DNA of 44,058 nt from an uncultured Planctomycetales bacterium (GTDB lineage: Bacteria > Planctomycetota > Planctomycetia > Isosphaerales > Isosphaeraceae), in NCBI GenBank assembly GCA_903926465.1, contig CAIYJE010000015.1:1-44058 (forward strand), in the 5' to 3' direction. Made by a program: the position numbers and the translations under genes. This document shows, piece after piece, positions 5,852-40,716 of the stretch. The number at the start of each line of letters is the position of its first letter. The stretch's first letter is position 1. The notes under the pieces were generated by a model, which was given only the letters and a program-made list of their open reading frames with translations, searched no databases and was not told where the DNA came from.

Positions 5852-7057
5852 GTGAGATTTGCCTCGCTTTCCTCCCGGGAACCATCCGTGCCGCACGCTT
5901 CGTACCCTCCGCTGACTGTTGAGCAACTCTCGCCCGCATCTGACCGACATCATGTTGATCAGGTGCTGGCTCAGTTTTTGGATGAAGCGCGCTGCCGCTT
6001 CGCCAGTAACCCCCATGCTCAGCCCCTGTTTGACCAGGCGGCCGAGTTCGTGCTGGAGGGGGGTAAGCGGATCAGGCCCCGGCTCTGCCTGGCCAGCTAT
6101 CGGATTTTGACTCATCGCCAAGAGCCGCCGCACCCGGCGCTCAATGCCGCCTCGTGTTTTGAACTGTTCCATGCCTTCATGCTGGTGCATGACGACCTGA
6201 TTGACGGTAGCACCCTGCGGCGAGACGGCCTGGCCCTGCACGAACAGATCCGGCTTTCGGCCATTGCCCCCGAAACGGGTACGGGCCGGAAACGGGCGGC
6301 CGACCTGGGCTTGGTGGCCGGCGACCTGCTGTGCGCCCTGGGCATGAGACTGCTGGCCCAGGCCGGCCTTTCCGATGCCGTTTATGGGCGGGCCAGCCGG
6401 TTGATGTCGGAAATTTTGCTGGAAACGGGGGTCGGCCAGACCCTGGACATTGCCTTTGACATTGCCGACCTGGAGACCCTGACCGAGCCCCAGATTCTGG
6501 ATGCCTACCTCCGAAAAACCTCGCGATATAGCGTGTCTGGGCCGCTGGTGCTGGGCGGCATTCTGGCAGGTGCCAGCGAACGAGTGATTCAGGCACTCAG
6601 CCAGTTTGGCGACCTGCTGGGGCTGGGCTACCAGCTCCAGAACGATCTCGACGCCTTGGAACACGACCCCACCAGTGGTGGCGATTATCCAGACCTGGAC
6701 GGTGGCAAACGGACATGGGTACTTTGGACTGCCTATCAGCGCCTGGACGATGCCGGCAAACGGGCCTTACAAGATGCCCTGGCCGACCCCGTGAGCCTGG
6801 CCAGACGCATTCGCCTTTTCCGCCTGATCCAGGCCAGCGGCGCCATTGCCGCCGGCCGTGTGCGGCTTCAGAACTGGCGAAACGAGGCCGCGGCCAGCAT
6901 CCGAGACGCCACCCTCACTCCCAACCAGGAATGTTCGCTGCTCACGCTCATTGAGTTATTGCCTGGTCGGCATGCCACCCCCAGCGGGGCCGCGGCCAGC
7001 ATGGAGTCTGCGTATATTGGCCCCTTGGTGGAACTGGCCGAAAAGGCCACCGCCTGA
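5852..7057 (+). CDS. crtE: Polyprenyl (geranylgeranyl-type) diphosphate synthase
   Basis: This enzyme makes a long-chain isoprenyl diphosphate from IPP and an allylic primer, the first committed step feeding the crt genes downstream. The GGKRIRPRLCL segment near residue 70 is the usual start of the fold. The first aspartate-rich motif is HDDLIDGSTLRR near residue 113 and the second is YQLQNDLDALEHD near 262; both Mg-binding sites look intact. At 401 residues it is longer than the usual 290-340, with extra C-terminal sequence past residue 330. The GTG at 5852 gives the longest frame; a GTG at 5888 is also possible. It is followed 114 bases later by crtI. Product chain length (C15, C20 or longer) cannot be fixed by eye, so crtE is assigned from context. 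Confidence 0.85.
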   Translation: MRFASLSSREPSVPHASYPPLTVEQLSPASDRHHVDQVLAQFLDEARCRFASNPHAQPLFDQAAEFVLEGGKRIRPRLCLASYRILTHRQEPPHPALNAASCFELFHAFMLVHDDLIDGSTLRRDGLALHEQIRLSAIAPETGTGRKRAADLGLVAGDLLCALGMRLLAQAGLSDAVYGRASRLMSEILLETGVGQTLDIAFDIADLETLTEPQILDAYLRKTSRYSVSGPLVLGGILAGASERVIQALSQFGDLLGLGYQLQNDLDALEHDPTSGGDYPDLDGGKRTWVLWTAYQRLDDAGKRALQDALADPVSLARRIRLFRLIQASGAIAAGRVRLQNWRNEAAASIRDATLTPNQECSLLTLIELLPGRHATPSGAAASMESAYIGPLVELAEKATA

Positions 7058-7171: not shown

Positions 7172-8716
7172 ATGGATGTTGATGATCTGATGAGCGTACT
7201 GCGTTCGGCGTCCAGCAACCAGACTTCGCCAGGCTCGAAATCACCCAGGCTGGGCCGGACGGCGGTGGTGATTGGCAGTGGATTCGGCGGCCTGGCGGCG
7301 GCCATCCGGCTCCAGGCCAAAGGGTACCAGACTACCATCCTGGAAATGCGTGACCAACCCGGCGGCCGGGCGTACGTGTACCGAGATCAGGGGTTCACCT
7401 ATGATGCAGGCCCCACCATCATCACCGTTCCGTTCATCCTGGATGAACTGGCTGAGATTGCCGGCAAATCGCTGGATTCCTACATTAAAATTGTCCCCTG
7501 CGACCCGTTTTACCGGATCTTTTTTGACGACGGCGAAACCTTTGATTATGTGGGCGATCCGGCTCGCTTCGAGGCCGAGATCCTGCGTTTGAACCCCGGT
7601 GATCTGGAAGGCTATCGCCAGTACGCCGCCTACACCAAGCGGGTATTTGACCGTGCGTTCACAGACCTGGCCGCCCATTCGTTCGACTCGTTCTGGGAGA
7701 TGATCAAGGTGGCCCCAGACCTGATGCGTCTGCGGGCCGAACAGCCGGTCTTTCAGCGGGTTTCGCGTTTCATCCGTGACCCCAGGCTTCGGGTCGCCCT
7801 TTCGTTTGAGCCGCTCCTGATCGGTGGCAACCCGCTCCAGTCGTCGTCCATTTACGCGATGATCCATTACCTGGAGAAAACCTGGGGGGTCCACTTTGCG
7901 ATGGGGGGCACAGGCGCGCTGGTGAACGGCCTGGTGCGGATGTTTGAAGATATTGGAGGGACCCTGAAACTGGATGCCCGCGTGGCTGAGATTGAGGTGG
8001 AGGGGGGCAAAGTTCGCGGCTGCAGGCTGGGCAGTGGCGAGTTTTATCCCGCCGATGTGGTGGTGGCCAATGGTGATGTGGCCAATACCTACCGCAAGCT
8101 GATCAAGCCCGAACACCGCCGCAAGTGGACCGATCGCCGCCTGGAACGGATGCGGTACGCCATGAGCCTTTTCGTGATCTACTTCGGCACCAACCGCACG
8201 TATGAACACCTGCCCCACCATGCGATTGTGCTGGGGCCCCGGTATGAGGGCCTGCTGGGCGATATTTTTGACCGCAAGGTGCTGGCCAAGGACTTCTCTT
8301 TGTACCTGCACACCCCCACCCGGACCGACCCCAGCCTGGCCCCGCCCGGTTGCGAGTGCTTTTACGTGCTTTCGCCGGTTCCCCACCTGGGCGGCGGTCA
8401 AGACTGGGAAGCCATCAAGGACGAGTACGCCGACCGGATCCTGGCCTCACTGGAAAAAGAGCACCTGGTTCCCGACCTCCGCAAGCATCTGGTCTCCCAA
8501 CGGATCTTCACGCCTAATGACTTTGAGACCGAGCTGGATGCCTACATGGGGTCGGCCTTTCAGTTTGAGCCGGTGCTCACCCAAAGCGCCTGGTTCCGCC
8601 CGCACAATAAAAGCGAAGACGTTGAGAATCTGTTCTTTGTGGGGGCGGGTACCCATCCAGGGGCCGGCCTTCCGGGCGTGATCAGCAGCGCCAAGGTGCT
8701 GGAGAAGTTCATCTGA
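7172..8716 (+). CDS. crtI: CrtI-type carotenoid desaturase
   Basis: This FAD-dependent enzyme introduces double bonds into phytoene or a C30 analogue to make coloured polyenes. The N-terminal dinucleotide fold VIGSGFGGLAAAIRL starts near residue 34 and is followed by PGGRAYVYRDQGFTYDAGPT, a hallmark of CrtI/CrtN proteins. The C-terminal family signature NLFFVGAGTHPGAGLPGV lies near residue 485. The length of 514 residues is normal for the family. It lies between the prenyl synthase and crtB on the same strand. Whether the substrate is C40 phytoene or a C30 precursor made through squalene, as reported for some planctomycetes, cannot be told from the sequence. An alternative start is the ATG a few codons downstream, at MSVLRSA. 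Confidence 0.93.
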   Translation: MDVDDLMSVLRSASSNQTSPGSKSPRLGRTAVVIGSGFGGLAAAIRLQAKGYQTTILEMRDQPGGRAYVYRDQGFTYDAGPTIITVPFILDELAEIAGKSLDSYIKIVPCDPFYRIFFDDGETFDYVGDPARFEAEILRLNPGDLEGYRQYAAYTKRVFDRAFTDLAAHSFDSFWEMIKVAPDLMRLRAEQPVFQRVSRFIRDPRLRVALSFEPLLIGGNPLQSSSIYAMIHYLEKTWGVHFAMGGTGALVNGLVRMFEDIGGTLKLDARVAEIEVEGGKVRGCRLGSGEFYPADVVVANGDVANTYRKLIKPEHRRKWTDRRLERMRYAMSLFVIYFGTNRTYEHLPHHAIVLGPRYEGLLGDIFDRKVLAKDFSLYLHTPTRTDPSLAPPGCECFYVLSPVPHLGGGQDWEAIKDEYADRILASLEKEHLVPDLRKHLVSQRIFTPNDFETELDAYMGSAFQFEPVLTQSAWFRPHNKSEDVENLFFVGAGTHPGAGLPGVISSAKVLEKFI

Positions 8717-8826: not shown

Positions 8827-8917
8827 TTGTGGACTGTATCTCACCTCGAACCCCCAGTCTGCACAATACCGAAGGTCGCCTGTTGGGTCCTTCGTTTTTT
8901 CTCCAGTGAGTCTTCCC

Positions 8918-9343
8918 ATGAAAATCCATAGCCTCAGCCTTGCTGCCGCCCTGCTCCTTGGGGTTTCTGTCACAGCCCAGGCTGACGACTGGTACGGGCA
9001 GCCGGGCGGTGACTGCACCACCTGCGGCGGCTCCATTGCCAACGGACTTCACGCTCACGGCCGCAACATCAAACGCAATTACAATGAGTGGGTGGCCGGA
9101 CGCAAGCTGGTGTACTACTACAACCTGCCCGACAAAAACGGTTACATTGCCAGCCCCGCGCCCGTCCTGACCGGGCCCGCGTTTGACCCCGTCTACAAGA
9201 CCCCCAAGGTGATCAACCCCGGCTACCCCATCAACCAGTCTTATGGTGGCGGTTACCCAGTGGGCCAGCCGATGGGCGGTACCATTGTGGGTGATCCGCT
9301 GCCGACCGCTTTCACCTCACCCACCACCCAGATCATCCCTTGA
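8918..9343 (+). CDS. Small exported protein with CTTCGG motif, coupled to crtB
   Basis: A 141-residue protein starts at ATG 8918 with a classical signal peptide (MKIHSLSLAAALLLGVSVTA, cleavage probably after QA near residue 22). The mature part carries DCTTCGGSIANGLHAHG, with two cysteines two residues apart, then a Tyr-rich segment and a Gly/Pro-rich tail (SYGGGYPVGQPMGG). I do not recognise the family. A GTG at 8906 in the same frame is a less likely start. Its TGA overlaps the TTG start of crtB, so crtB translation probably depends on this gene. The CxxC could bind metal or form a disulfide; it is not a CxxCH haem site. An exported protein inside a carotenoid operon is unexpected. Confidence 0.75.
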   Translation: MKIHSLSLAAALLLGVSVTAQADDWYGQPGGDCTTCGGSIANGLHAHGRNIKRNYNEWVAGRKLVYYYNLPDKNGYIASPAPVLTGPAFDPVYKTPKVINPGYPINQSYGGGYPVGQPMGGTIVGDPLPTAFTSPTTQIIP

Positions 9344-10308
9344 GTCGATCCAACCCCGGTTCAACGCCGACCGATCCCTTGGACCGGTCGGCCTCCGAAC
9401 TTGTTCGCCGCGAATCTGAAGACTTACCAGGCCCCGGAGATCACGCATCAAGCCTTGTGCTTGGTGACCAGATCTGCCGGGGCCTCACCAGGCGCTATGC
9501 TCGCACGTTTTACTTTGCCAGCCATTGCCTGCCGGGCTCGGTTCGGCCTCATGCGTATGCCATCTACGCGTTTTGCCGCTCGGCCGATAATGCGGTGGAT
9601 GAGGCCCAGTCTCTGCCAGACGCCCGGCAGCAGATTGCCCAGACCCGGCTTGACCTAAATCGGGTGTATGCCGGAGCCCCGGTTCCACCCCTGTACCAGG
9701 CGTTCCGTCGCACCGTCCAAGAGAAAGCGATTCCCCGTGACCTCTTCGAGGCCCTGCTCGACGGCATGGAGATGGATCTGACGATCAGCCGGTATGCCAC
9801 GTTCGCCGATCTGGACCTGTACTGCTACCGGGTGGCCGGTGTGGTGGGGCTGATGATGACCCACCTGTTTGGCTACCGCTCCGAGCGCTGCTTTCCCAGT
9901 GCGGTGGCCCTGGGCCAGGCCATGCAGCTCACCAATATCTTGCGTGATATCCAGGAAGACCTGGAGCGGGACCGGATCTATCTCCCGCAAGACGAACTCG
10001 CCCAGTTTGGCGTGACCGAAGCCGCGCTGGCAGCCAGACAGGTTGATGAACCGTTCCACGAGCTGATGCGATTCCAGATTGCCCGCGCACGGGCCGCGTA
10101 TACCGAGGCTGAAGCCGGCATCCCAGACCTGATCGGTCATTCCAGCCGGTTGACCGTGCGTGTGATGGGGCGGCTATACGGTGGCATCCTGAACGCCATT
10201 GAGCGGCAAGATTATGATGTGTTCCGTTCTCGGGCCAGGGTCTCAACGCCCCGCAAACTCGTGGGCCTGGGCCAGTGCCTGGCCAGGGAGTTTGCGGGGA
10301 AGCCGTGA
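9340..10308 (+). CDS. crtB: Phytoene/squalene synthase family protein
   Basis: This enzyme condenses two prenyl diphosphates head to head to give phytoene or a C30 analogue, the step before CrtI. The two aspartate motifs are present: SADNAVDE near residue 80 and LRDIQEDLERDRIYLP near residue 202, together with the family segment YCYRVAGVVGLMM near 160. The length of 322 residues is typical. Translation appears to begin at a TTG (9340) that overlaps the stop of the preceding gene (TTGA) and has no Shine-Dalgarno of its own, which points to translational coupling. The gene is convergent with the next block. The CrtB, CrtM and HpnC/D subfamilies look alike by eye, so substrate length is open. 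Confidence 0.9.
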   Translation: MSRSNPGSTPTDPLDRSASELVRRESEDLPGPGDHASSLVLGDQICRGLTRRYARTFYFASHCLPGSVRPHAYAIYAFCRSADNAVDEAQSLPDARQQIAQTRLDLNRVYAGAPVPPLYQAFRRTVQEKAIPRDLFEALLDGMEMDLTISRYATFADLDLYCYRVAGVVGLMMTHLFGYRSERCFPSAVALGQAMQLTNILRDIQEDLERDRIYLPQDELAQFGVTEAALAARQVDEPFHELMRFQIARARAAYTEAEAGIPDLIGHSSRLTVRVMGRLYGGILNAIERQDYDVFRSRARVSTPRKLVGLGQCLAREFAGKP

Positions 10309-10343
10309 ACTGCGATCGAATCCAGGATCTGAACAGACCCAAC

Positions 10344-11663
10344 TCAGGATCTTGATGCTTTGAAAATTGCGTACTGATTCTCAAACAGCGAAATCGCCCG
10401 GTGGAACTGGGCAAAGTTCAATACCAGATTCATGGCGATCAGCACGGTTGCCAACCCCAGTACAGACCAGCGGTAGCGTGTCTGGCTACCTAGAGAGGCA
10501 ACGACCACCAGCAGCGGCAGATAATTTGCCGAGTACAAAAAGACTTCCGCGCCATACACCAGGTGAAGCGCGTAGCCACCCAGAATTGTCACAAGCAAGG
10601 TAATCTTCAGAGTTTTATCGGCCCCAGACACAACCATACCGGCAAGGCCTAGCAGGCAGAGAGAGATCCAGATTACCGAGGCAAACCCCTGAGGGATATT
10701 GCGATGGCCACCCGGTGGAACCTGGACCGTCAAGCGGTGGGCTTTTTCGAGAGGGTTCCAATCATTGGGCGTGGTACCGATCGCGGGCAAGGTCATCCCA
10801 TGCAGGAAAAAGGCCTGGCTGGCCGCTGCAAGTCGCGCCACGTTCGGCCGTGTCATATAGGTCACTTCTCCTCGCTGAGATACCAGGAAGAACCCGGCTG
10901 AGGGGCAGATCGGTTTTTGGAAACTCCAAAGCACTACCACAACGCAGAGCGCGTTGGCACTGATCTGGATGGCCCGTTTGGGCCCCTGCCCGACTACGGC
11001 GGCAACAAGTCCCAGCATCCAGTTGGTCACCGTCATGCTCAGAGAAAGTGCACTCGCAACCGTGTACCGAACGCCACTCAAGCGCCCGTCGCTTCCTGCG
11101 GCAATCAGCAGAAGAGCCAGGATCAGGCTGATCGATCCGATGAAATGATACTCGGGTAGTCCAATCCAGAAGATCACGCTGGCACTAGAAAGCGCCAGCA
11201 GTGAGAACACGACAGCATCCAGACGTTTGTTGCCCAGCACGCGTAATAACGCATAAAAACTGCAACCCCACACGGCGGCCGCCAGACCCAGCACAATCCG
11301 CACCTCGGACAGACGATTGCTTACTCCCAACCGCCGCAGGATCTGAACTGGAACGGTGCTCACCAGCGGATACAGGGGATGCACGCTTGTACGGTTCATA
11401 TAGGGTGAGTACCTGTTCGTAAAATTCTGAAACAGGTAGGGAGAGTCTCCATCAAACCAGATATCCATCGCCGGAATGTCATAGATTTCCAGAGGAAACT
11501 GGCGAGAGCACCAGACGCAAAGGGTGCAGCCCAGTAACCCGATGAATAGGCTAACCGTCAATTCTACAAGCCACGTCCTCCAACGCGTGTGTTCTGAAAT
11601 TGATAAGGACAAGGCTCTTCTCCGGGCGCTTGGGGTTCTCAAAAATGAGCAAAACTGAGTCAA
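10344..11663 (-). CDS. Polytopic membrane protein, possibly GT-C-type glycosyltransferase
   Basis: A hydrophobic protein of about 439 residues with roughly nine membrane segments. The first (LVELTVSLFIGLLGCTLCV) is followed by a large polar loop with DIPAMDIWFDGDSPYLFQNF, where acidic residues just after the first span recall GT-C glycosyltransferases that use polyprenyl-phosphate sugars. Later spans include SLILALLLIAAG and VLGLATVLIAMNLVL. I cannot assign a named family. The best upstream start in frame is a TTG at 11663, so the true start may be a little further in. It is the last of three minus-strand genes after the UbiA-type and dehydrogenase genes; a lipid-linked sugar role would fit that context but is inference. 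Confidence 0.65.
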   Translation of the reverse strand: MTQFCSFLRTPSARRRALSLSISEHTRWRTWLVELTVSLFIGLLGCTLCVWCSRQFPLEIYDIPAMDIWFDGDSPYLFQNFTNRYSPYMNRTSVHPLYPLVSTVPVQILRRLGVSNRLSEVRIVLGLAAAVWGCSFYALLRVLGNKRLDAVVFSLLALSSASVIFWIGLPEYHFIGSISLILALLLIAAGSDGRLSGVRYTVASALSLSMTVTNWMLGLVAAVVGQGPKRAIQISANALCVVVVLWSFQKPICPSAGFFLVSQRGEVTYMTRPNVARLAAASQAFFLHGMTLPAIGTTPNDWNPLEKAHRLTVQVPPGGHRNIPQGFASVIWISLCLLGLAGMVVSGADKTLKITLLVTILGGYALHLVYGAEVFLYSANYLPLLVVVASLGSQTRYRWSVLGLATVLIAMNLVLNFAQFHRAISLFENQYAIFKASRS

Positions 11664-11759
11664 TTGCCGGAATCTTCGGAATCCATTTCTGAACTCACCT
11701 GATCTGGAAACGACGCTGAAAAATAGGTTCTCACCAGGTCAGACGCATGAAGACGCTTT

Positions 11760-13571
11760 TCAAGGCTTGGAGCTGGTGGGTAGTGAGATGAGAAACGCGA
11801 TCAAGTCGCCAATCTGGTCGGATTCCAGTGCACCCTGGAAAGAAGGCATCTTCGAGAATGGGTGATCGAACCTGGGTACCTCGATGTGGTGCTTCAGCCA
11901 GACTCGGACTCGGTCGCGTGACTGAGCCTGCTGGACACTACGCAGCCGGTCGCGTTGCGCGATGTAGAACTCTTGCTCGCTGGCGAGCAGTTTCTGGAGC
12001 TGCGACTCATAGCCGGGCGAACTGAGCCGTCTGGGAAGTTCATCCATCAGATATGTCAGGTTGGGTCCTTCGTGCCCACCAAAACCCTGAAGCGTGTGAC
12101 ACTGGGCACAGTTGGCGTAGAAGAGCCGCTCTCCGCGTGGGATGGGATCCAAGCGGGCCCATTCCAGGTCGGGTGGCGATTCCAGGTACAGGGTCGATTC
12201 CGAGGGAAAGACACGCCAGATCGAAGCGACCGACGTTTCTGGGGTTCCGTCAGATTCGCCGAAGAAGTCCGTGAAATACAGACCATCGGGCCCTTCGGCC
12301 AGCCCCAGCACCGTGGCTTGCTTCTGGCCCGTGTACTTGACGATTTCGGTGGGCGCTTGACTTAACAGGCCGGTTTTCGGGTCGATCAGAAACTCATTGA
12401 GCGATTTACCGACCCCGGTGCCCAGTTCGCCGGGGCGGCCATAACAGGCCACATAGCATCGCCCCACGGTTCCAGGGCCCAAGGCGGGAGCTCGCAAAAT
12501 TGCGAGCCCAACCGGGGCCGTATTATGAATGGGCCCCCAGGTCCAGAGCGCGTTCAAACGCGTGCTCTCATAATCTCCATCCCAGCCATACTGGGCCCCG
12601 CTGATGATGTTCATGAACCGATCAATATTCTTACCGTTATCCACTCCGTACATGCGGCCCTTGGCGTCGAAATCAAAGTCAAACACGTTGCGCAGGCCGG
12701 CCGCGTACACGAACTGGCTTGGCGCCTGATCAAGGTCGGGGTGGTACCAGGGGTTATCGGCACAGGGCTCGCCGGTGATGGTCATCCTGAGCAACTTACC
12801 GCCATACTTGCTCAAATCCAGGCTCAACTGATGGTTCTCTGCGTCTCCCACCGAGACGTACAGCATACCATCGGGGCCGATCTGGACCTGCTGGATCTGG
12901 TTGGACGCGGAGGTGAATTCGTGCAGGTCGCGAATCACCTCGATCCGATCCAGGTGACGGCCATCGGCACTGAGCTTGAGGCGAATGATCTGGTTATAAA
13001 GCAACCCAGACACCTCATCGAGCGCGGCCCGGGTCAGAATCAAATCTGGAGAACCAGGTACCGTGGTCAGGCCACTCAGGCCGGTTTCACTACTCTTTTT
13101 GGCCAGGTTGGGCGTGAAGTTCAGTAACCCCGTGGCCAGCGTTTGAACTGCGCCACGCTGTGTCACGTAGCGAACCGAGCCATTCAACTCCGCCACGTAA
13201 AACGGCGGGGCATCGGGGCCTGCGCCGGGCGTCTTTGCAAAGGCAAGATTCACGGGGTACTGCAAGCCGGTTGCAACTTGCTCAATTTCCAGACCTCGAC
13301 GTACCGACCACTGGGGTGAAAGCCGAGACGGTACCAGATGGGTTGCCGAGCGTGGCAGGTTGTAGTCATGTCCGTACGCATAGCGCAGATCTTGCGGATC
13401 TTTTGGAGGGGACAGACGATTTACGGTCGCACCCACGCGCCTGGCAATTCCATCTCTGATCCGGCTGACTACGTGAGAACCCGTTCGACGATAAAGAAAT
13501 GCGCCCGCAAGCAGACTTCCCAGCAGCAAACCGGCCAGCAGGAATACCAACTCTCTGCGATAATTCTTCAT
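11760..13571 (-). CDS. Membrane-anchored beta-propeller dehydrogenase (Gdh/sorbosone type) with C-terminal cytochrome c
   Basis: This 603-residue protein starts at ATG 13571. Residues about 8-26 (LVFLLAGLLLGSLLAGAFLY) form an N-terminal anchor or signal, placing the rest outside the cytoplasmic membrane. Residues about 85-460 form a glucose/sorbosone dehydrogenase-type beta-propeller (GLQYPVNLAFAK, YVSVGDAENH, FVYAAGLRNVFDFDFD, NGKNIDRF). The C-terminus is a class I cytochrome c with CAQCH near residue 487 and a likely Met ligand in SKMPSF near 575. Such fusions oxidise a sugar or aldehyde, often with PQQ, and pass electrons to the haem (family knowledge); the substrate here is unknown. The frame is open upstream to 13811, but that part overlaps the UbiA gene and lacks a protein-like sequence, so I excluded it. 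Confidence 0.85.
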   Translation of the reverse strand: MKNYRRELVFLLAGLLLGSLLAGAFLYRRTGSHVVSRIRDGIARRVGATVNRLSPPKDPQDLRYAYGHDYNLPRSATHLVPSRLSPQWSVRRGLEIEQVATGLQYPVNLAFAKTPGAGPDAPPFYVAELNGSVRYVTQRGAVQTLATGLLNFTPNLAKKSSETGLSGLTTVPGSPDLILTRAALDEVSGLLYNQIIRLKLSADGRHLDRIEVIRDLHEFTSASNQIQQVQIGPDGMLYVSVGDAENHQLSLDLSKYGGKLLRMTITGEPCADNPWYHPDLDQAPSQFVYAAGLRNVFDFDFDAKGRMYGVDNGKNIDRFMNIISGAQYGWDGDYESTRLNALWTWGPIHNTAPVGLAILRAPALGPGTVGRCYVACYGRPGELGTGVGKSLNEFLIDPKTGLLSQAPTEIVKYTGQKQATVLGLAEGPDGLYFTDFFGESDGTPETSVASIWRVFPSESTLYLESPPDLEWARLDPIPRGERLFYANCAQCHTLQGFGGHEGPNLTYLMDELPRRLSSPGYESQLQKLLASEQEFYIAQRDRLRSVQQAQSRDRVRVWLKHHIEVPRFDHPFSKMPSFQGALESDQIGDLIAFLISLPTSSKP

Positions 13572-13642
13572 GGAAGCACCCAACTCGGCGGTTCTTTCAC
13601 AATCCAACGGAATCCGGCTTGGCCCAGGGAGGGAACAGGCTA

Positions 13643-14662
13643 TCACAACTGGGCGGCGATAATCGTGACCAGGGCCAGCGCCGCCGCACCTAAACTCCAG
13701 GGATCTCGCAGCAAGAACACCAGCGGGTCGTGGTGCATTTCTCCCCGGATCGCCATGCGCCAGATCCAGGTGATCCAGAAGCCGGTGATTGGCGCCAGCG
13801 CCCAAAGCCATTGAGGATGGCCGTCGAGTGACGTCCGCCCAGGGTCATGGATGTAGCCACCAATCATCAAGACCGCAAGGTAACCGCTCAGAGGACCGAC
13901 GACCCGGAGCCAGGGAAGATCCGCACGCGTGTAAGCCCGACCGGGGAGCGGACTGGGCGCGTGGCTGGAATCCTCAAGAAGTTCGGTGTACCGCTTTAAA
14001 AAGGCCAGACTCGAGAAAAACAAGCCAGAAAAGCCCAGGATCCAGTTTGAGACCGCAATTCCAGTGGCTGCACTTCCGGCATAGATACGCAGCGCAAAGA
14101 GACCCGACAGGATCAAGACATCGACCAGATAGCTCCGTTTCAGGCCCAGGGTGTAGGTGAGCGTGATAAGGAGATAGGCGAGTAAGCAAAAGAGATAAGC
14201 ACGCGGGAGGTACAACCCGAGTCCGAGCGAAAGACTGACCAGCACCAGCGAGACCACCAGGCCGGTGGTTACCGATACCGTGCCCCTGGCAAGAGGCCGG
14301 TTCCGCTTGTAAACGTGCGCGCGGTCGAACGGGAGATCGATCAGATCATTGAAGACGTAGATTCCGGAGGCCGCCAGGCTGAACGAAAGGAACGCCAGAA
14401 CCGAGGCTACAATCATCGAGCCTGGGATTTGCGTGACTGACAATAGAATTGGCAGAAACAGTAATAAATTCTTGGCCCATTGGTGAATTCGAAGCAGTCT
14501 TAACCCGGTCAGGAACCGCTGCCTTGCCTGTGAAGCATTCCGCGGTAGAGTTTCGGGAAAGCTTGGACTAAACGGCATCTGAATCAAATTCCAATTGGTC
14601 CCCAGTTTCCTGGCCGCCGTTCTAGCATGTGTCCGAGTTACCGCCGAGTTTGGTGCATTCAT
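13643..14662 (-). CDS. UbiA-family prenyltransferase, DPPR-synthase-like
   Basis: An integral membrane prenyltransferase of 339 residues. The opening RLLRIHQWAKNLLLFLPILL is characteristic of the decaprenyl-phosphate phosphoribosyltransferase branch of the UbiA family, and the first aspartate motif NDLIDLPFDRAHVYKRNRPLA lies near residue 110. About eight hydrophobic segments follow. Known relatives transfer phosphoribose to polyprenyl phosphate to start arabinan-type sugar donors; other UbiA branches prenylate quinones or carotenoids. Given the carotenoid genes on both sides, a carotenoid or lipid-sugar role are both possible. The ATG at 14662 is used here, but MPFSPSF at 14578 is a good alternative. 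It is 71 bases ahead of the dehydrogenase gene on the same strand, suggesting one transcript. Confidence 0.85.
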   Translation of the reverse strand: MNAPNSAVTRTHARTAARKLGTNWNLIQMPFSPSFPETLPRNASQARQRFLTGLRLLRIHQWAKNLLLFLPILLSVTQIPGSMIVASVLAFLSFSLAASGIYVFNDLIDLPFDRAHVYKRNRPLARGTVSVTTGLVVSLVLVSLSLGLGLYLPRAYLFCLLAYLLITLTYTLGLKRSYLVDVLILSGLFALRIYAGSAATGIAVSNWILGFSGLFFSSLAFLKRYTELLEDSSHAPSPLPGRAYTRADLPWLRVVGPLSGYLAVLMIGGYIHDPGRTSLDGHPQWLWALAPITGFWITWIWRMAIRGEMHHDPLVFLLRDPWSLGAAALALVTIIAAQL

Positions 14663-14792
14663 CGGGCTCTTGGCTGATCATAACCGCGTGCAGAATTTCT
14701 TGCAGCAGTTTACGATGAAGCAGCGATGTGACACCAGTGACTGTGGCCCGCCGAGGGCTCAATCTTGCCCTCCAAAGAACCGTGCTTGAATC

Positions 14793-15887
14793 ATGCCCTT
14801 TGAAGCCTCCCCATCAACGGCTCTCGATCCCGATCGCTTCATCAACTTCGGCACGCCGGGATCTCAGGAGTGGTGGTACTTCGATGCGATCAGCGACGAT
14901 GGCCGGGATGCCCTGGTGGCCGTGTGGTATGCCGGCTTGCCGTTTGATCCTGCCTACGGGGTGGCCGCGCTCAAGCATGGCCGGGCCCCGCACCGGCACC
15001 AAGCGCCCCACCCGCTGGACCATTGCGCTTTGGGCCTGAGCTGGTACCACGAGGGCAAACCCGTTGCCTACGCGCTGAATGCCTACAAACGGGATCGGTT
15101 CAACCACCGGTCTGAGCCTTTTGGCGTCTCGGTGGCCGGCAACCACCTGACCAGACACGCAGACGGACAGTACCGCCTGGAGTTCGAAACCCCGGCCGTG
15201 GATGGCCGGCGGAAGATCCAAGGCGAGCTCACCTTCACGCCGGCGGCCGGCACCCGGCCGATTGAGCGTGACCTGGGGCATGCCGGCTCGCCCCACCTCT
15301 GGATGCTGGCCGCGCCGGATTGCCGGGTGGCAGGCACCCTCTCGATTGGCCGGGGTAAGGGGGACCGCTCGTTAACGTTTCAGGGGCGGGGATACCATGA
15401 CCACAACGCCGGCTCGGAGGAGATTAGCCTGGCCATGCGCCGTTGGCACTGGGGCCGCGTACACATGGGGCCGGCCACCCACGTTTACTATCATGCCACC
15501 ACCCAGCAAGGCGAATCGCAATCGCTCTGGATCACGCTCGATCAGGTCAAACCGCCCTGCATCCGCGAAACTCCCTTCTTTCTGGAACGGCCCGGCAAAC
15601 CGAACCGGTTCGGGGTACCCTCGGACCTGTCACTGGCCCTCAACGAACAGCCAGCGCACCAACCGGGCCCGCTTTTGATGCGAATCCCGGGAACCTGCGT
15701 GGATGATGGCCCATTCTATCGCCGGTTCCTGTCCACCTTCATCCTGGGTGAAGGCCCGTTTGATAACGGCCCGCCCCAACCCACGGCCAAGGCCACCGGA
15801 ATCAGCGAACTGCTGGACACCAGGAACCTCAATTCCCCCTGGTACAACTGGATGATTCCGTTCCGTCTCAAACGCCCGCGCTCGTAA
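14793..15887 (+). CDS. crtC: CrtC-like carotenoid 1,2-hydratase
   Basis: CrtC-type enzymes add water across the terminal double bond of an acyclic carotenoid to give the tertiary alcohol. The 364-residue protein opens with DPDRFINFGTPGSQEWWYFDA, the usual start of this family, and carries the signature FQGRGYHDHNAGSEE near residue 196-210 within a lipocalin-like fold. It lacks a signal peptide. It sits apart from crtE-crtI-crtB, past an opposing three-gene block, and diverges from the UbiA gene with only 130 bases between them. A hydratase implies the end product is an acyclic hydroxylated carotenoid. Related hydroxysqualene or AttH-type lipocalins share the fold, so exact chemistry is less certain than the family. 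Confidence 0.85.
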   Translation: MPFEASPSTALDPDRFINFGTPGSQEWWYFDAISDDGRDALVAVWYAGLPFDPAYGVAALKHGRAPHRHQAPHPLDHCALGLSWYHEGKPVAYALNAYKRDRFNHRSEPFGVSVAGNHLTRHADGQYRLEFETPAVDGRRKIQGELTFTPAAGTRPIERDLGHAGSPHLWMLAAPDCRVAGTLSIGRGKGDRSLTFQGRGYHDHNAGSEEISLAMRRWHWGRVHMGPATHVYYHATTQQGESQSLWITLDQVKPPCIRETPFFLERPGKPNRFGVPSDLSLALNEQPAHQPGPLLMRIPGTCVDDGPFYRRFLSTFILGEGPFDNGPPQPTAKATGISELLDTRNLNSPWYNWMIPFRLKRPRS

Positions 15888-15942
15888 GCAAGCCGCCCGT
15901 ATCGGCCAGCCGCAACCGACGTCTGAAACTTTTCAAGAAAAT

Positions 15943-15965
15943 ATTTCGTTTTTTCTGAACGAAAT
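15943..15965. promoter_or_regulatory. 8-bp perfect inverted repeat upstream of csrA
   Basis: ATTTCGTT at 15943-15950 and AACGAAAT at 15958-15965 form a perfect inverted repeat with a 7-base loop. It lies between the end of crtC and the csrA -10 box and covers where a -35 box would be. It could be an operator or activator site for csrA, or less likely a weak crtC terminator, since no T-tract follows. Confidence 0.5.
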
Positions 15966-15981
15966 CCCGTCGGGCTGCGTC

Positions 15982-15987
15982 TATACT
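15982..15987 (+). promoter_or_regulatory. Likely -10 box of the csrA promoter
   Basis: TATACT matches the sigma-70 -10 consensus in five of six positions and lies about 87 bases before the csrA ATG. No good -35 box is found 16-18 bases upstream; that position is occupied by the right arm of the inverted repeat at 15943-15965, so activation by a protein bound there is plausible. Confidence 0.45.
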
Positions 15988-16073
15988 AATGTCAGTCCTG
16001 AAAAACTGGCCGAGGAATGGCCGTTGCCCCATGGCAATCGTTTCGATGATGGACCACCAGGGAGGGTTTGACA

Positions 16074-16766: not shown

Positions 16767-19700
16767 ATGGCGGCATGGAATGACCGGAGGGGACGGCGTA
16801 CCCGGAACTTGGCAACTCGGCGGCCTGTTCTGGAATGCCTTGAATCACGGCTGGTGCTTTCCACCTTTACGGTGACCAACGTCAATGACTCCGGGGCGGG
16901 TTCGTTCCGTCAGGCGATTACCGACGCCAACAGCACGCCCAATGCGGCCGGTACCACCGACATGATCAACTTCAATATCGCGGGCACGGGGCTGCACACC
17001 ATCACCGCCAGTTCGGCTCTGCCCGATATTGGCGAAACAGTGACGATCAACGGCTATAGCCAGCCCGGTTCCAAGGCCAACACCCAGGCCACCGGCGCTT
17101 TGAATTCGGTGTTGTTGATCAGCGTGCCCGGGTTCACGGTCACTTCTGGGCATGTGGTGCTGCAGGGCCTGGACTTTCCCACCGGTGGGCTGGTGATCAA
17201 AGGGGACACCAACCGGGTGGAAGGCTGCTACATAGGCACCAATAATCTGGGTACGGTGGCTCCTGGGCTGGCCCCTGGCGCGGCCACCCAGACCGGAATC
17301 TTGGTTCTGGGGAGCAGCAACTTGATTGGTGGCACCGATCCTGGGACCCGGAATCTGATCTCGGGCAATAACAGCGCCGGGGTGTTGATCCAGGGGGGGG
17401 CCAGTGGCAATACCCTGGAGGGGAACCTGATCGGCACCCAGGCCAATGGAGCTACCGCCCTGGGGAACGCCGTGGGGGTTCGGTTTGAGAGCAGCACCAG
17501 CAACAAGGTGGGCGGCACCGACACCGGGGCCGGTAACGTGATTGCCGGCAATTCGTACGCCGGCGTCTGGCTGTTCAACGCCTCGAATTCCGTGATCGAG
17601 GGGAACCTGATCGGCACCACCGCCACCGGCCAGACCGCGCTGGCGAACCAGAACTTTGGCGTGGCCGTGGATGGCACCACCGGCTCGGCCATGATTGGCG
17701 GCACCACGGCGGCGGCCCGGAACATCATTTCCGGCAACAATGGGCCGGGCGTGCTGGTGGCCACCAGCGAGACCGGCAACGACGTGCTGGGCAATTACAT
17801 TGGCGTGGCCGCCGATGGCACCACCGCCCTGGGAAATGTTGGGCCTGGCATCCGCGTGGCCCGCGCGGATAAGGGGATGTACATTGGCGGCACCATTGCG
17901 GCGGCGGCCAACCTGATCAGCCACAACCTGGGGGCCGGGGTCACCGTTGACCCTGCGTCCAGTTCCAGCTCTGCCCCCGCCCCCACCGCCGTCTCAATTC
18001 GCACCAATCAGATCTACAATAACCAGTCCATTGGCATTGATCTGGGTTCGGATGGCACCACCAACAACCACAACGGCGGCCCAGTGAGCGGCCAGCCCAA
18101 CGGCCAGCTCAATACCCCGGTTCTGAGCGCGGTCACCAGCGATGGCAGTACCACCTCCATCACCGGCAGCTACAACGGCGCCCCCAGCACCACCTACACC
18201 CTGCAGTTCTTCAGCAGCCCGTTTGCCAGTTTCACCAGCAGAGGCGATGGCCTGACCTACCTGGGCCAGACCACGGTCACCACCGATAGCGCGGGCAATG
18301 CCTCGTACCTGGCCGGCATGCCGGTCCCGGTGGGGGCTGGTAAGCCGGTCTCGGCCATCGCCATCGACCCGACCGGCAATACCTCGGAGTTCTCTGCCGA
18401 CTCGGCGTTTGCGTTCAGCAGTCCGGTGAATCTGGCAGTGGTGCTCTCACAGGTTGCCAGCCCGATTGGAACCGGTCAACCGTTCACGTACACGGCCACC
18501 GTGACCAACAACGGCACCAACACGGCCAACAATATCTCGCTTGTGTGCGCAGCCTTTGGCGGGGGCGTTCAGGTGGATGCCGCAAAAACCACCATCAACC
18601 AGGGGACGATCTCGGTAGAGACCGGTGGAATTTATGCCACCATTGGCTCACTGGCTCCTGGAATTTCGGCCAAGGCCACCATCACGGCCACAGCCACCCA
18701 GTCTGGGCAGATCAACCTGACCGGGCTGACCTACAGCTCCGAGCCTGAAACCACCACCACCGACAACTCGACACATGAAGTGGTCACCGTGGCTGCCGCC
18801 CCTGACCTGGTCGTGCAGGGTTCGGGCCCCAGCAGCGTGGCCATCAACCAGCCGGCCACCTTCACCTTCACGGTGCGGAACTCGGGCTCGGGTGCGGCCT
18901 CCGGCGTCAAGCTCACCATCCCCTTGCCCACCGGCTCTTCCTACAGCAACGGCACCACCAGCCAGGGTTCGATCGGCCAGACCGGCACCTCGGTGCTGGT
19001 CGATATTGGCACCATGGCCGCCAACGCCGTGATTACGGTAAAGGTCCCGGTTGCCGCCTCGGCGCAGGGAACCCTGAGCCTGACCGCAACCGCCACCCTC
19101 ACGGAAACGGACCCCACTCCGGCCAACAATTCCACCACGGTCAGCGTGACGGTGCTCAGCGCCCCCAATATGCAGACGGTGGTGACCTCACCGGGCCCCA
19201 ACATCTACCTGGGCCAGATTGCCACCTACCTGATCACCATTACCAACCACGGCCAGACCACCGCCAACAACGTGGTGGTGAATGCCAACCTGTCACCGGC
19301 CGGCGAGTTTATCAACACCTTCGCCACCCAGGGGACTTCCACCAGCCACCCGGGGACCGTTCAGGCCGCGCTGGGCTCGATCAAACCGGGTGAATCGGCC
19401 GTCGTCACCGTCAACGTTCGGCCGATCCAGGCCGGCGTGGCCACGCTGGGGGCCACCACCACCAGCACCGAGCCCGACGCCGACCCCCAAGACAACACCG
19501 GCGCCGCCAGCGTGACGGTGGTGGCCCAGCCCACCCCGACCCACGTCACCCGTATCAAGCCGGTGGTTCAGAACGGCAGAATTCGCAGCTACGAGATCAC
19601 CTTCTCCGACGCTCTCGATTCCGACTCGGCCTCCCGAATTGGTGCCTACCGGGTGATTGCCCCTGGCCCTTCGGGCGTGCTGGGCGCGCCTGGATCGCGG

Positions 19701-20168
19701 AATTTGCCACTCAGTTATGCCACCTATGATGACTCGCTGCATAAGGTCACGCTGGTGCTGAAGCAACTGGCCCCCATGAACCAGTTCATCGGCATTGTGG
19801 CTTATGGCACCGGTGGCCACGCCATTCATGACAGCCACGGCCAGCCGATCGACGGTGACAACCGGGGCGTGGTGGGGACCGACCTGATGACCATGGTCGG
19901 CCGTGGCAACCGGCTGGCATACTCGGATGCCGATGGCGACCGGGTGCTGTTGCAGATCCAGGGGCCTGGCGGGCTGGTGATCTTCCGCACCCTCGGCCAG
20001 AACGCGATTGTGCTGACGGCCGGAACCTCGCCCTACAAGAGCAAGCTCATTGGCGGCGTCAAGCGGACCGGTTCGGCCGGCAACGGCGTCACCTATATCA
20101 GCCAGTTCTATGGCCTGGAGAACGTGATCAACCGTCTGCCCTCCAACAAGTTCGTGATCCAGAACTGA
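16767..20168 (+). CDS. Large secreted beta-helix protein with DUF11-type repeats
   Basis: A 1133-residue secreted or surface protein. It opens with an Arg-rich stretch and LECLESRLVLS near residue 24, the planctomycete LExLExR-type N-terminal motif seen on exported giant proteins. Residues about 40-430 form a right-handed beta-helix with recurring turns of the form GNxIGTxAxGxTALGN (at least four copies, around residues 152-360). Residues about 550-920 hold three DUF11/CARDB-like Ig modules, each with a NNGTNTANN or NSGSGAASG type turn. The C-terminal 200 residues form a further domain starting THVTRIKPVVQNGRI. Thr, Gly, Asn and Ala are very frequent and cysteine is nearly absent (one Cys at residue 154-ish of the helix and one in the first DUF11 module). 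Adhesion or envelope structure is likely; binding partner unknown. Confidence 0.85.
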   Translation: MAAWNDRRGRRTRNLATRRPVLECLESRLVLSTFTVTNVNDSGAGSFRQAITDANSTPNAAGTTDMINFNIAGTGLHTITASSALPDIGETVTINGYSQPGSKANTQATGALNSVLLISVPGFTVTSGHVVLQGLDFPTGGLVIKGDTNRVEGCYIGTNNLGTVAPGLAPGAATQTGILVLGSSNLIGGTDPGTRNLISGNNSAGVLIQGGASGNTLEGNLIGTQANGATALGNAVGVRFESSTSNKVGGTDTGAGNVIAGNSYAGVWLFNASNSVIEGNLIGTTATGQTALANQNFGVAVDGTTGSAMIGGTTAAARNIISGNNGPGVLVATSETGNDVLGNYIGVAADGTTALGNVGPGIRVARADKGMYIGGTIAAAANLISHNLGAGVTVDPASSSSSAPAPTAVSIRTNQIYNNQSIGIDLGSDGTTNNHNGGPVSGQPNGQLNTPVLSAVTSDGSTTSITGSYNGAPSTTYTLQFFSSPFASFTSRGDGLTYLGQTTVTTDSAGNASYLAGMPVPVGAGKPVSAIAIDPTGNTSEFSADSAFAFSSPVNLAVVLSQVASPIGTGQPFTYTATVTNNGTNTANNISLVCAAFGGGVQVDAAKTTINQGTISVETGGIYATIGSLAPGISAKATITATATQSGQINLTGLTYSSEPETTTTDNSTHEVVTVAAAPDLVVQGSGPSSVAINQPATFTFTVRNSGSGAASGVKLTIPLPTGSSYSNGTTSQGSIGQTGTSVLVDIGTMAANAVITVKVPVAASAQGTLSLTATATLTETDPTPANNSTTVSVTVLSAPNMQTVVTSPGPNIYLGQIATYLITITNHGQTTANNVVVNANLSPAGEFINTFATQGTSTSHPGTVQAALGSIKPGESAVVTVNVRPIQAGVATLGATTTSTEPDADPQDNTGAASVTVVAQPTPTHVTRIKPVVQNGRIRSYEITFSDALDSDSASRIGAYRVIAPGPSGVLGAPGSRNLPLSYATYDDSLHKVTLVLKQLAPMNQFIGIVAYGTGGHAIHDSHGQPIDGDNRGVVGTDLMTMVGRGNRLAYSDADGDRVLLQIQGPGGLVIFRTLGQNAIVLTAGTSPYKSKLIGGVKRTGSAGNGVTYISQFYGLENVINRLPSNKFVIQN

Positions 20169-31204: not shown

Positions 31205-32188
31205 TCACTTCTGCCGCAACCGCTCCGCGGTCTGGGCATCCACCGCCACGATGGTGCCATGTCGGATCCCCGCGGGCAATGAGACTTCAATCCGCGCAAA
31301 CGATTGGAAATCGCGGGTTTCCAGCGCCCCATAGCCACCTTTGTTGTACTGGTCAAAATACACCAGCCAGCGATCGTTCACCCGGATCACCGCAGGCCCT
31401 TCCGCCCAGGCGTCCTGGTTATTCGTGAACGCCGGGCCCACCTTCTCCCAGGGGCCGTCGACCCCCTTCAGCGACCAGACAATATGCAAATCCTTGGCGG
31501 GCGTTGGCTCAACCGTCTCGTCTTTGACCACCAACCCGTACCGGCCTTCGTGTCGAAACAAGAAGGCATCAATCACATTGAAGCCGCCGTTATAGAATAA
31601 CTTCCTCGGACTCCAGGCCTGGAAATCCCGAGTGGTCACAGCATAGATGCGATGATTGTAGCCTTTGTCCGCCTTCACCTGAGTCTCTGGAAACGCCCCT
31701 TCCATGGTGGTGGCCCAGATCACCCAATACAGCCCGCTGGCATCATCGTAGAAGATCTCGGGTGCCCAGGTATTCTTGGCCCTGGGTTCATCCTGATTCA
31801 CCGCGACGAATTCTTGTGCCGACCAATCCAGCAGGTCCTTGGAATGGGCTAATCCAAAACCCTGATCGGTCCACGAGCTTGTCCACACCATGTGATAGCG
31901 GCCATCGCCGCCCTTGCAAATGCTGGGGTCACGTGCCAGCTTGCCACCGACCTTGGGAACCAGCACCGGCTTGCCGCCATTCAACTCGCGCCACTGAACC
32001 GCGTCGTCACTGAGCGCCAGATACACCCCCGCCTGACCATTGTCGCGGAAAAAGCTGAAAACATACGCCGGTTGGGAGACCGGTGCCGCCCCTTCCTGGT
32101 CGGCGGCACCTTGCGCAAGGCCACAAGAAGCTACGCCAAGCCCCCAGGCCAACCCCAGCATCCCTACCTTCAGTGCACGGAAACTCAT
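31205..32188 (-). CDS. Secreted GH43/GH32-like five-bladed propeller glycosidase
   Basis: A 327-residue protein from ATG 32188, with GGAGAGG nine bases upstream. The N-terminus (LKVGMLGLAWGLGVASCGLA) is a signal peptide with a possible lipobox-like SCG. The mature part shows repeated propeller blades: YVFSFFRDNG, KLARDPSICKGGDGRYHMVWTSS, NTWAPEIFYDDASGLYWVIWAT and WAEGPAVIRVNDRWLVYFDQYN. The Asp in RDPS, the acid in WAPE and the Glu in WAEGPAV match the acidic positions of the GH43/GH117-like superfamily. The substrate, probably a plant or algal polysaccharide fragment, cannot be told. The frame is open upstream to 32257 without a signal-like start. Confidence 0.82.
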   Translation of the reverse strand: MSFRALKVGMLGLAWGLGVASCGLAQGAADQEGAAPVSQPAYVFSFFRDNGQAGVYLALSDDAVQWRELNGGKPVLVPKVGGKLARDPSICKGGDGRYHMVWTSSWTDQGFGLAHSKDLLDWSAQEFVAVNQDEPRAKNTWAPEIFYDDASGLYWVIWATTMEGAFPETQVKADKGYNHRIYAVTTRDFQAWSPRKLFYNGGFNVIDAFLFRHEGRYGLVVKDETVEPTPAKDLHIVWSLKGVDGPWEKVGPAFTNNQDAWAEGPAVIRVNDRWLVYFDQYNKGGYGALETRDFQSFARIEVSLPAGIRHGTIVAVDAQTAERLRQK

Positions 32189-32309
32189 TGAGACCTCTCC
32201 GAACGTAACACGCCTGGGAATGGTGCCCCCCCCCTCCCCAGACTCAATCACTCGCACCCTCGTTGAAACACCACGGAGCTTCTGCTGGATTTGAACCGGT
32301 TCCAGGACC

Positions 32310-38975: not shown

Positions 38976-39031
38976 TGGTTTCTCTTCTATCTTCTGAGGA
39001 TGGACGGTGAACTGGTAGAGTTGGGACGTGA

Positions 39032-40639: not shown

Positions 40640-40687
40640 GGAAATCTCTTGTGCCGGGGGCAGTGAGACACGAACACCGTATGGCGA

Positions 40688-40716
40688 ATCATAATACACG
40701 ACTTTACTGTCGTCAA
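40688..40716 (-). promoter_or_regulatory. Sigma-70-like promoter of dabBA with internal operator
   Basis: On the minus strand TTGACG (40711-40716) and TATGAT (40688-40693) are separated by exactly 17 bases, the best promoter in the window. The start of transcription would be near 40681, about 40 bases before dabB. Inside the spacer is the inverted repeat ACGAC-TTTACT-GTCGT (40698-40713), well placed for a repressor to block polymerase. Confidence 0.75.

Follow-up and report, generated by a model that had tools for sequence, protein, structure and literature searches.

Three minus-strand genes between crtB and crtC of an Isosphaeraceae bacterium: a probable relocated cassette for pentofuranose transfer

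The carotenoid gene cluster considered here belongs to an uncultured Planctomycetales bacterium of the family Isosphaeraceae and lies on contig CAIYJE010000015.1 (GenBank assembly GCA_903926465.1). The whole stretch that was analysed, hereafter the window, comprises 44,058 nucleotides (nt; positions 1-44058), and its open reading frames (ORFs) were read from the letters. According to the ORF coordinates, three minus-strand genes at 10344-14662 separate crtE-crtI-crtB from crtC (Table 1). An initial annotation had described the cluster as split in this way, and the three ORFs are indeed in place after the correction of one start. They encode, in order of position, a predicted membrane glycosyltransferase of the glycosyltransferase C (GT-C) type, a propeller protein with a haem-c domain, and a putative phosphoribosyltransferase of the UbiA superfamily that resembles decaprenylphosphoryl-5-phosphoribose (DPPR) synthase. 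The gaps within the block are only 71 and 96 nt, which suggests that the three genes form one operon, divergent from crtC. Promoters for both directions would be expected in the region between the UbiA gene and crtC. Nevertheless, a promoter and terminator scan of 9300-16000 was uninformative, with 0 sigma-70-like sites (2.5 by chance) and 7 terminators compared with 6.1 by chance.

Table 1. Features in and around the minus-strand block, with the evidence on which each assignment rests.
Feature	Position	Strand	Evidence
crtE, polyprenyl diphosphate synthase, geranylgeranyl-diphosphate-synthase-like	5852-7057	+	PF00348 8.9e-39
crtI, phytoene desaturase family, CrtI-type oxidoreductase	7172-8716	+	TIGR02734 4e-185
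crtB, phytoene/squalene synthase family (SQS_PSY)	9340-10308	+	PF00494 9.9e-83
Convergent junction between crtB and the GT-C gene, 35 nt, one apparent insertion edge	10309-10343	.	coordinates
Predicted GT-C-fold membrane glycosyltransferase	10344-11663	-	predicted structure model; homologues paired with DPPR-type UbiA
GSDH-family propeller protein with C-terminal haem-c domain	11760-13571	-	PF07995, PF00034, orthologue alignment
Putative UbiA-superfamily polyprenyl-phosphate phosphoribosyltransferase, DPPR-synthase type, without N-terminal HAD	13643-14662	-	NF006088, 8j8j, residues
Divergent intergenic region between the UbiA gene and crtC, 130 nt	14663-14792	.	coordinates
crtC, carotenoid 1,2-hydratase-like	14793-15887	+	NF045922 1e-11; crtB neighbour in relatives

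The arrangement of the crt genes in related bacteria indicates how the block came to lie where it does. In 45 genomes of the same family, which were searched for crtC and crtI, crtC is present in 17, the window's included, and the crtI of 14 other genomes is 73-82% identical to that of the window; 16 crt regions were then examined. Both crtB and crtC occur in the loci of 14 relatives; without exception, the two genes are adjacent and share one orientation, with a gap of 45-144 nt between aligned ends, compared with 4484 nt in the window. The full crtE-I-B-C order is found in 13 of these loci, the other (L091) showing only a broken-looking crtB with crtC. The three-gene block is present in none of the 16 crt regions. 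Thus, the operon of the family has the same order and direction as that of the window, but it is uninterrupted in the relatives and interrupted here. Because crtB and crtC are almost adjacent in every relative that has both, the three minus-strand genes are best read as an insertion in this lineage. Its age has to be judged in light of the fact that the 45 family genomes include no further species of the window's genus. Since all three genes have homologues elsewhere and the opposing block is missing from the crt loci of relatives, it does not consist of chance open frames. A possible origin as a mobile element gained no support, as no repeat pairing both edges stood out and none of the three block genes is a transposase according to Pfam and NCBIfam.

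Some variation is found among the crt genes themselves. The top NCBIfam score of the window's crtB goes to HpnD, under the HpnD cut-off, and its crtC gives only a distant match (44.7 bits, compared with a cut-off of 400 for NF045922). Among the relatives, crtI adjoins crtC without crtB between them in one locus (L079, genome G004), and in another (L094) crtC lies near the contig start, with no other crt match there. Between crtI and crtB of the window lies a Gly/Tyr-rich ORF of 145 amino acids (aa) with a signal-like start (8906-9343, plus strand), which overlaps the start of crtB by 4 nt and has no match in the crt loci of the 16 relatives. The Y-x-D motif of CrtC is kept in all 17 loci, and H-x-W was seen by eye in the window's protein. 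For Rubrivivax CrtC, alanine mutants of the Tyr and Asp of Y-x-D and of the H-x-W residues are described as inactive in hydration (PMC4717167). Since these motif residues are kept, hydroxylated carotenoids are plausible with or without the block. A literature search found no paper joining Isosphaeraceae, carotenoid and crtC.

The UbiA protein is the member of the block whose family can be assigned most directly. It matches PF01040 with 76.2 bits (cut-off 34.2), and its NCBIfam matches are led by NF006088 (1.3e-97; 327 bits, compared with a cut-off of 351 for a model that also spans a HAD half). Models of PRK12324, decaprenyl-phosphate phosphoribosyltransferase, also match under their cut-off. 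Only two entries of the PDB are related to it at E<=0.01, and both are DPPR synthase, the better being 8j8j (E 4.9e-22). Its residues were mapped onto 8j8j in the numbering of Rv3806c, the mycobacterial DPPR synthase, in which 13 positions are reported to bind phosphoribosyl pyrophosphate (PRPP), Mg or decaprenyl phosphate, the phosphoribose-binding sites being described as unconserved in other UbiA proteins (PMC10994848). Ten of the 13 are identical in the window protein (R22, K28, Y70, N73, D77, K87, R90, Y138, K143 and K191). Three differ, namely Y157 (Phe), Q135 (Thr) and K208 (Leu). Thr also stands at Q135 in 8 of 12 aligned rows, the window included, the K208 column is variable, and Phe at Y157 is reported for some mycobacteria (PMC10994848). 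At four of the kept positions (K64, Y102, K119 and K223 of the window protein), the three other UbiA proteins found in the genome, which are read as a haem O synthase, a quinone-type protein and an EboC-like protein, all have different residues. Because its sole solved relatives are DPPR synthase and residues for PRPP and lipid phosphate are kept, the protein looks like a polyprenyl-phosphate phosphoribosyltransferase of the DPPR-synthase type.

In phylogenetic terms, the protein nests inside a clade of HAD-UbiA fusions in a tree of 33 rows, where its branch is long (1.3, compared with a median of 0.25). The tree places it with two relatives from its own family (L006 and L007; 99/98), which argues for descent within the family. 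A HAD domain is present in the UbiA proteins of three further loci (L009, L010 and L015). The UbiA superfamily includes carotenoid elongases, and a long branch, the loss of HAD and a place in the crt operon would all suit a UbiA protein that had turned into a carotenoid prenyltransferase, similar to lycopene elongase, and now made C45 or C50 pigments. C40 and C45 carotenoids have been reported from two marine Pirellulaceae strains (PMC12078418). Such a change of function is nevertheless highly unlikely here, given that 10 of the 13 positions for PRPP, Mg and lipid phosphate are kept, four of them without counterpart in the genome's other UbiA proteins, and that NF006088 and the DPPR models lead the NCBIfam matches, a comparison made by models and from which elongase sequences were absent.

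The GT-C assignment depends on structure. The protein has about 10 hydrophobic segments and no Pfam or NCBIfam match, and its AlphaFold model, built from 16 aligned rows, reached a predicted local distance difference test score (pLDDT) of 83.9 and a predicted template modelling score (pTM) of 0.87. When the model was compared by VIA-align, the first 49 rows had Z values of 11.5-21.5 and row 50 a value of 4.1; helical models may reach Z 13-14 without a clear match, and the lower rows weigh less. The top rows include ALG12 (21.5), ArnT (18.7), AftB (18.6) and AftD (17.4). Glycosyltransferase chains, all of which we take to be GT-C enzymes, make up 45 of the 49 rows, the other 4 being GPI transamidase chains. 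Plain Foldseek ranked ALG9, DPY19 and ALG12 highest but found nothing at E<=0.001; the assignment of a GT-C-like fold to this membrane protein therefore derives from the VIA-align result on a predicted model. In an alignment of homologues (A3), W69, F70, H95 and P96 never vary and D73 hardly does, which by analogy makes this region a candidate active-site loop. Both names proposed in the initial annotation, a DPPR-synthase-like prenyltransferase and a GT-C-like membrane protein, are thus borne out, the former by the 8j8j match and the ten binding residues and the latter by the modelled fold.

Homologues of these two genes are often found together outside the window. A wider contig scan with a three-row GT-C alignment gave 21 loci, 8 of them with less than full flanks. 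In addition, a set of 397 genomes of the class contains six with the GT-C gene, that is, the window's genome, G027, G029, G192 (a weak match, E 3e-6), G179 and G334. In total, a UbiA gene of the DPPR type lies within 10 kb of the GT-C relative in 15 of the 26 loci outside the window. The wider scan contributes 12 such pairs, and 11 of these also have an SMR/EamA-like gene; within the class, G027, G029 and G192 are paired, and the SMR-like gene has no match at their paired loci. The two genes are generally close. In 8 of the 12 pairs, their spacing ranges from an overlap of 70 nt (longest reading) to a gap of 369 nt; L098 has them in divergent orientation with 503 nt between; and in three further cyanobacterial loci, they lie ~1.3-1.8 kb apart with an SMR-like gene between them. 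Two cyanobacterial loci (L099 and L101) have two adjacent GT-C copies beside the UbiA and SMR-like genes, which suggests duplicated transferases for one lipid donor. In L100, L104, L108 and L118, the GT-C match falls within open frames of about 1100-1465 aa, and the long protein of L104 has no Pfam family.

Pairs of this kind turn up again in cyanobacteria, Proteobacteria and relatives, where they are separate from crt clusters. No match to crtE, crtB or crtC was found at any of the 26 loci, and the nearest approach is a weak crtI-family match (23% identity) ~3 kb from UbiA in L138 (G192), with no other crt genes. The same picture emerges from whole genomes. Among the 397 genomes, UbiA of this kind (E<=1e-20) is found in 55, crtC in 17 and both in 8; at this threshold, such a UbiA is missing from 9 of the 17 genomes with crtC, and crtC is missing from 47 of the 55 with UbiA. 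The window's genome is the only one in which the two are neighbours. In the other seven that have both, they are on different contigs in six, which are drafts, and ~183 kb apart in one.

These distributions bear directly on the proposal of the initial annotation that a polyprenyl-linked sugar is placed by the GT-C protein on hydroxyls made by CrtC, yielding a glycosylated carotenoid. In favour of the proposal, the block sits between crtB and crtC, contains both a transferase and the synthase of its donor, and adjoins a CrtC that keeps Y-x-D, whose Tyr and Asp are needed for hydration in the Rubrivivax enzyme (PMC4717167). However, neither UbiA nor the GT-C gene is linked to a crt cluster in any other genome or locus examined, so the block genes show no linkage to crt genes across relatives, and the same crt operon is found in relatives without the block. 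The gene order of all 14 loci with crtB and crtC, therefore, argues against a carotenoid link. In addition, the carotenoid glycosyltransferases known to us (CrtX and CruC) are nucleotide-sugar enzymes and not GT-C, which we count against such a product. In effect, the lipid-linked pentose pathway of that proposal, with a DPPR-synthase-type UbiA and a GT-C protein, is supported, but its glycosylated carotenoid is not and is very improbable. A related possibility is that the insertion is functional in place, with the GT-C protein, as a polyprenyl-phosphate-dependent enzyme, putting pentofuranose on CrtC-made carotenoid hydroxyls on the outer side of the membrane and the haem-c propeller oxidising the sugar. 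If true, this would be a carotenoid-glycoside route unlike the nucleotide-sugar enzymes just mentioned, but we regard it as highly improbable.

The third gene of the block encodes a propeller protein fused to a cytochrome domain. Its ORF overlaps the UbiA gene when read from 13811; a start at the ATG of 13571 agrees with the orthologues and leaves the protein with a hydrophobic N-terminus. The protein, which is probably exported, matches the GSDH family (PF07995) with 79.8 bits (cut-off 25) and cytochrome c (PF00034) in a part containing a CAQCH haem-binding motif and a distal KMP. In all four orthologues, the window's included, C488, C491, H492 and M575 are invariant, so both CxxCH and the distal Met are kept. 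By contrast, the sugar-dehydrogenase function suggested by the initial annotation is in doubt. The position aligned with the His of 2ism, which we take to be the catalytic His of soluble glucose dehydrogenase, is Asn in the window, L135 and L136 and His in L074, as read by eye from the alignments. Thus, the GSDH domain and the haem-c motif of that description hold, but the label of dehydrogenase remains uncertain, because the position is Asn in three of the four orthologues.

Full-length relatives of this protein are rare. At 1e-40, matches occur in 13 of the 397 genomes, but they run through the cytochrome part only in the window, G327, G206 and G004, the remaining ones reaching at most residues 76-454. 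In each of the three other genomes (3/396), as in the window, the gene is at most one gene away from a GT-C-like gene. In G004, the propeller frame of 595 aa is open despite a stop marked inside the match, and 32 nt downstream lies a gene that passes the PMT_2 cut-off and narrowly misses that of GT87; this GT-C protein shows no BLAST homology to that of the window. In G327, a related GT-C-like gene with PMT_2 under its cut-off precedes the propeller and is cut by the contig start. The most informative locus is that of G206, where the order is propeller, 486-aa membrane protein, GT-C-like gene, HAD-UbiA and SMR/EamA-like protein, with sugar-isomerase-like and GT2-like genes nearby, by reading of the translations. 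Its GT-C-like gene shares 50% identity with the PMT_2-like gene that adjoins UbiA in G017. The 486-aa protein between the propeller-cytochrome and the GT-C-like gene (L135, 7113-8573) is a multi-pass membrane protein without a Pfam family. The propeller-bearing stretches of G004, G327 and G206 contain no match to crt genes, and G206 is not among the 17 crtC genomes. G206 thus comes close to the state that would speak against any carotenoid role, in which the three genes stand together without carotenoid genes, except that its GT-C protein is of another family.

Alternatively, the propeller could be a respiratory dehydrogenase of sugars or alcohols with a general role, present in the insertion by coincidence and unrelated to a pentose pathway. 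A GSDH family member with a cytochrome c fits extracytoplasmic oxidation, though the Asn at the position of the 2ism His leaves oxidation of a sugar uncertain, and no DPPR-type UbiA is seen around the propellers of G004 and G327, the contig of the latter being cut beside the GT-C gene. Nevertheless, each of the few full-length orthologues has a GT-C-like gene no more than one gene away, and in G206 the cluster further includes HAD-UbiA and an SMR-like gene. On balance, a bystander role for the propeller seems rather unlikely, and the protein may instead be a new part of the pentofuranose machinery.

The closest published parallel is the pentofuranose system of Citrobacter youngae O1 and O2 (Kelly et al. 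2024; PMC11127046), in which pentofuranose side chains are described as added outside the membrane. Three proteins are named as its parts: a synthase of polyprenyl phosphoribose that also bears a HAD phosphatase domain, a flippase placed in the MATE type on bioinformatic grounds, and a GT-C enzyme. The three-component route is called widespread there, with separate phosphatases used by Mycobacterium and Pseudomonas (PMC11127046). The window block shares with it the UbiA-type synthase and a GT-C protein, the Citrobacter counterpart being ORF12, the reference for CAZy family GT136. The HAD fusion is matched in the homologous loci, which also carry a small SMR-like protein, whereas the Citrobacter flippase is of the MATE type; these loci fit the published description of three components. 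By contrast, the window's UbiA has no HAD domain, no flippase gene is adjacent, an extra haem-c propeller is present and the genes are inserted in a carotenoid operon. The block would thus be a rearranged variant of the published system (PMC11127046) and, as two parts are missing locally, is not filed as a complete member.

Mycobacterial and Pseudomonas enzymes offer further comparisons. In addition to the active-site positions shared with Rv3806c, the entries for AftA, AftB, AftD and EmbA/B/C match the fold of the window's GT-C protein at Z 12.6-18.6. The mycobacterial sugar is arabinose, whereas ribose is expected in the window, as a search of its genome for DprE1 found no strong match. Pseudomonas paraeruginosa glycosylates its pilin with D-Araf, and the ubiA island and TfpW described for this process (PMC12369383) likewise bring together UbiA, a pentosyltransferase of the GT-C family and an extracytoplasmic acceptor. 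However, the sugar is arabinofuranose and the acceptor is known in that species, and TfpW is likened here by its description (PMC12369383).

Taken together, the block probably represents a relocated cassette that serves extracytoplasmic pentofuranose transfer rather than carotenoid synthesis (probability of about 0.72). The direct basis for this is the family and active-site residues of UbiA, the GT-C-like fold, the recurrent gene pairing and the absence from the crt loci of relatives. According to this scheme, UbiA would transfer 5-phosphoribose from PRPP to polyprenyl phosphate, a phosphatase encoded elsewhere would remove the 5'-phosphate, the usual fused HAD being missing, and a flippase also encoded elsewhere would turn the lipid over. 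The last step would fall to the GT-C protein, which would hand the pentofuranose to a glycan or protein at the cell surface, outside the membrane. The haem-c propeller probably acts as a redox protein after export, belongs to the same kind of cluster and possibly tailors the sugar or its acceptor. Since no strong DprE1 match was found in the window's genome, the sugar moved is probably ribofuranose. The DprE1 model finds matches in all 45 family genomes as well as 10 of 14 controls, but what it recognises is mostly a generic FAD domain. Among the matches listed, G012 scores 470 bits (cut-off 500), the next 90, and the best of the window's genome 50, covering under one third of the model. On these values, an arabinose branch in the window's genome was rejected. 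In G012, by contrast, a HAD-UbiA gene is followed by DprE1-like (471 bits) and DprE2-like genes (L069, 646-4466), so the same family appears to contain an arabinofuranose branch.

Several observations weigh against the relocated cassette. The cassette is incomplete by itself, because neither a HAD domain, in the UbiA gene or elsewhere in the window, nor an SMR-like gene (best E 0.27 in a search confined to the window) was found. For the phosphatase, one HAD query over the genome gave no match, with no positive control run, and unrelated phosphatases are possible. The UbiA activity may have drifted, given the long branch. The pairing is also far from universal, as 9 of the 21 GT-C loci of the wider scan show no such UbiA in the stretch examined, nor do 2 of the 5 other class genomes with the GT-C gene (G179 and G334). 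The exact three families of the window are together in no other locus examined, the GT-C protein of G206 being of another family. Codon use is unusual in the GT-C (z 6.3) and UbiA (z 5.8) genes, but a foreign origin is not shown by composition, since other window genes are equally unusual (36450-39668, z 10.0; 16767-20168, z 6.1). Finally, the block may owe its persistence within the crt operon to some benefit of that position.

If the relocated cassette is what the block represents, its interest lies in a synthase without its phosphatase domain and in a haem-c propeller that accompanies GT-C-like genes. Should the propeller take part, the pentofuranose pathway would gain an extracellular redox tailoring step. 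The analysis also guards against accepting a plausible-looking pigment hypothesis on the strength of gene position alone.

Other genes of the window can be mentioned in passing. In the same window as the pentose genes, an arabinosidase-like protein of the GH43 family (PF04616) is encoded at 31205-32257 on the minus strand. A DDE_3 transposase-like gene lies near the window end (42281-43294, plus strand). On the minus strand at 36450-40699, DabA (PF10070, 883 bits), whose codon use is unusual, adjoins a Proton_antipo_M protein, and the pair looks like a DAB-type inorganic carbon pump.

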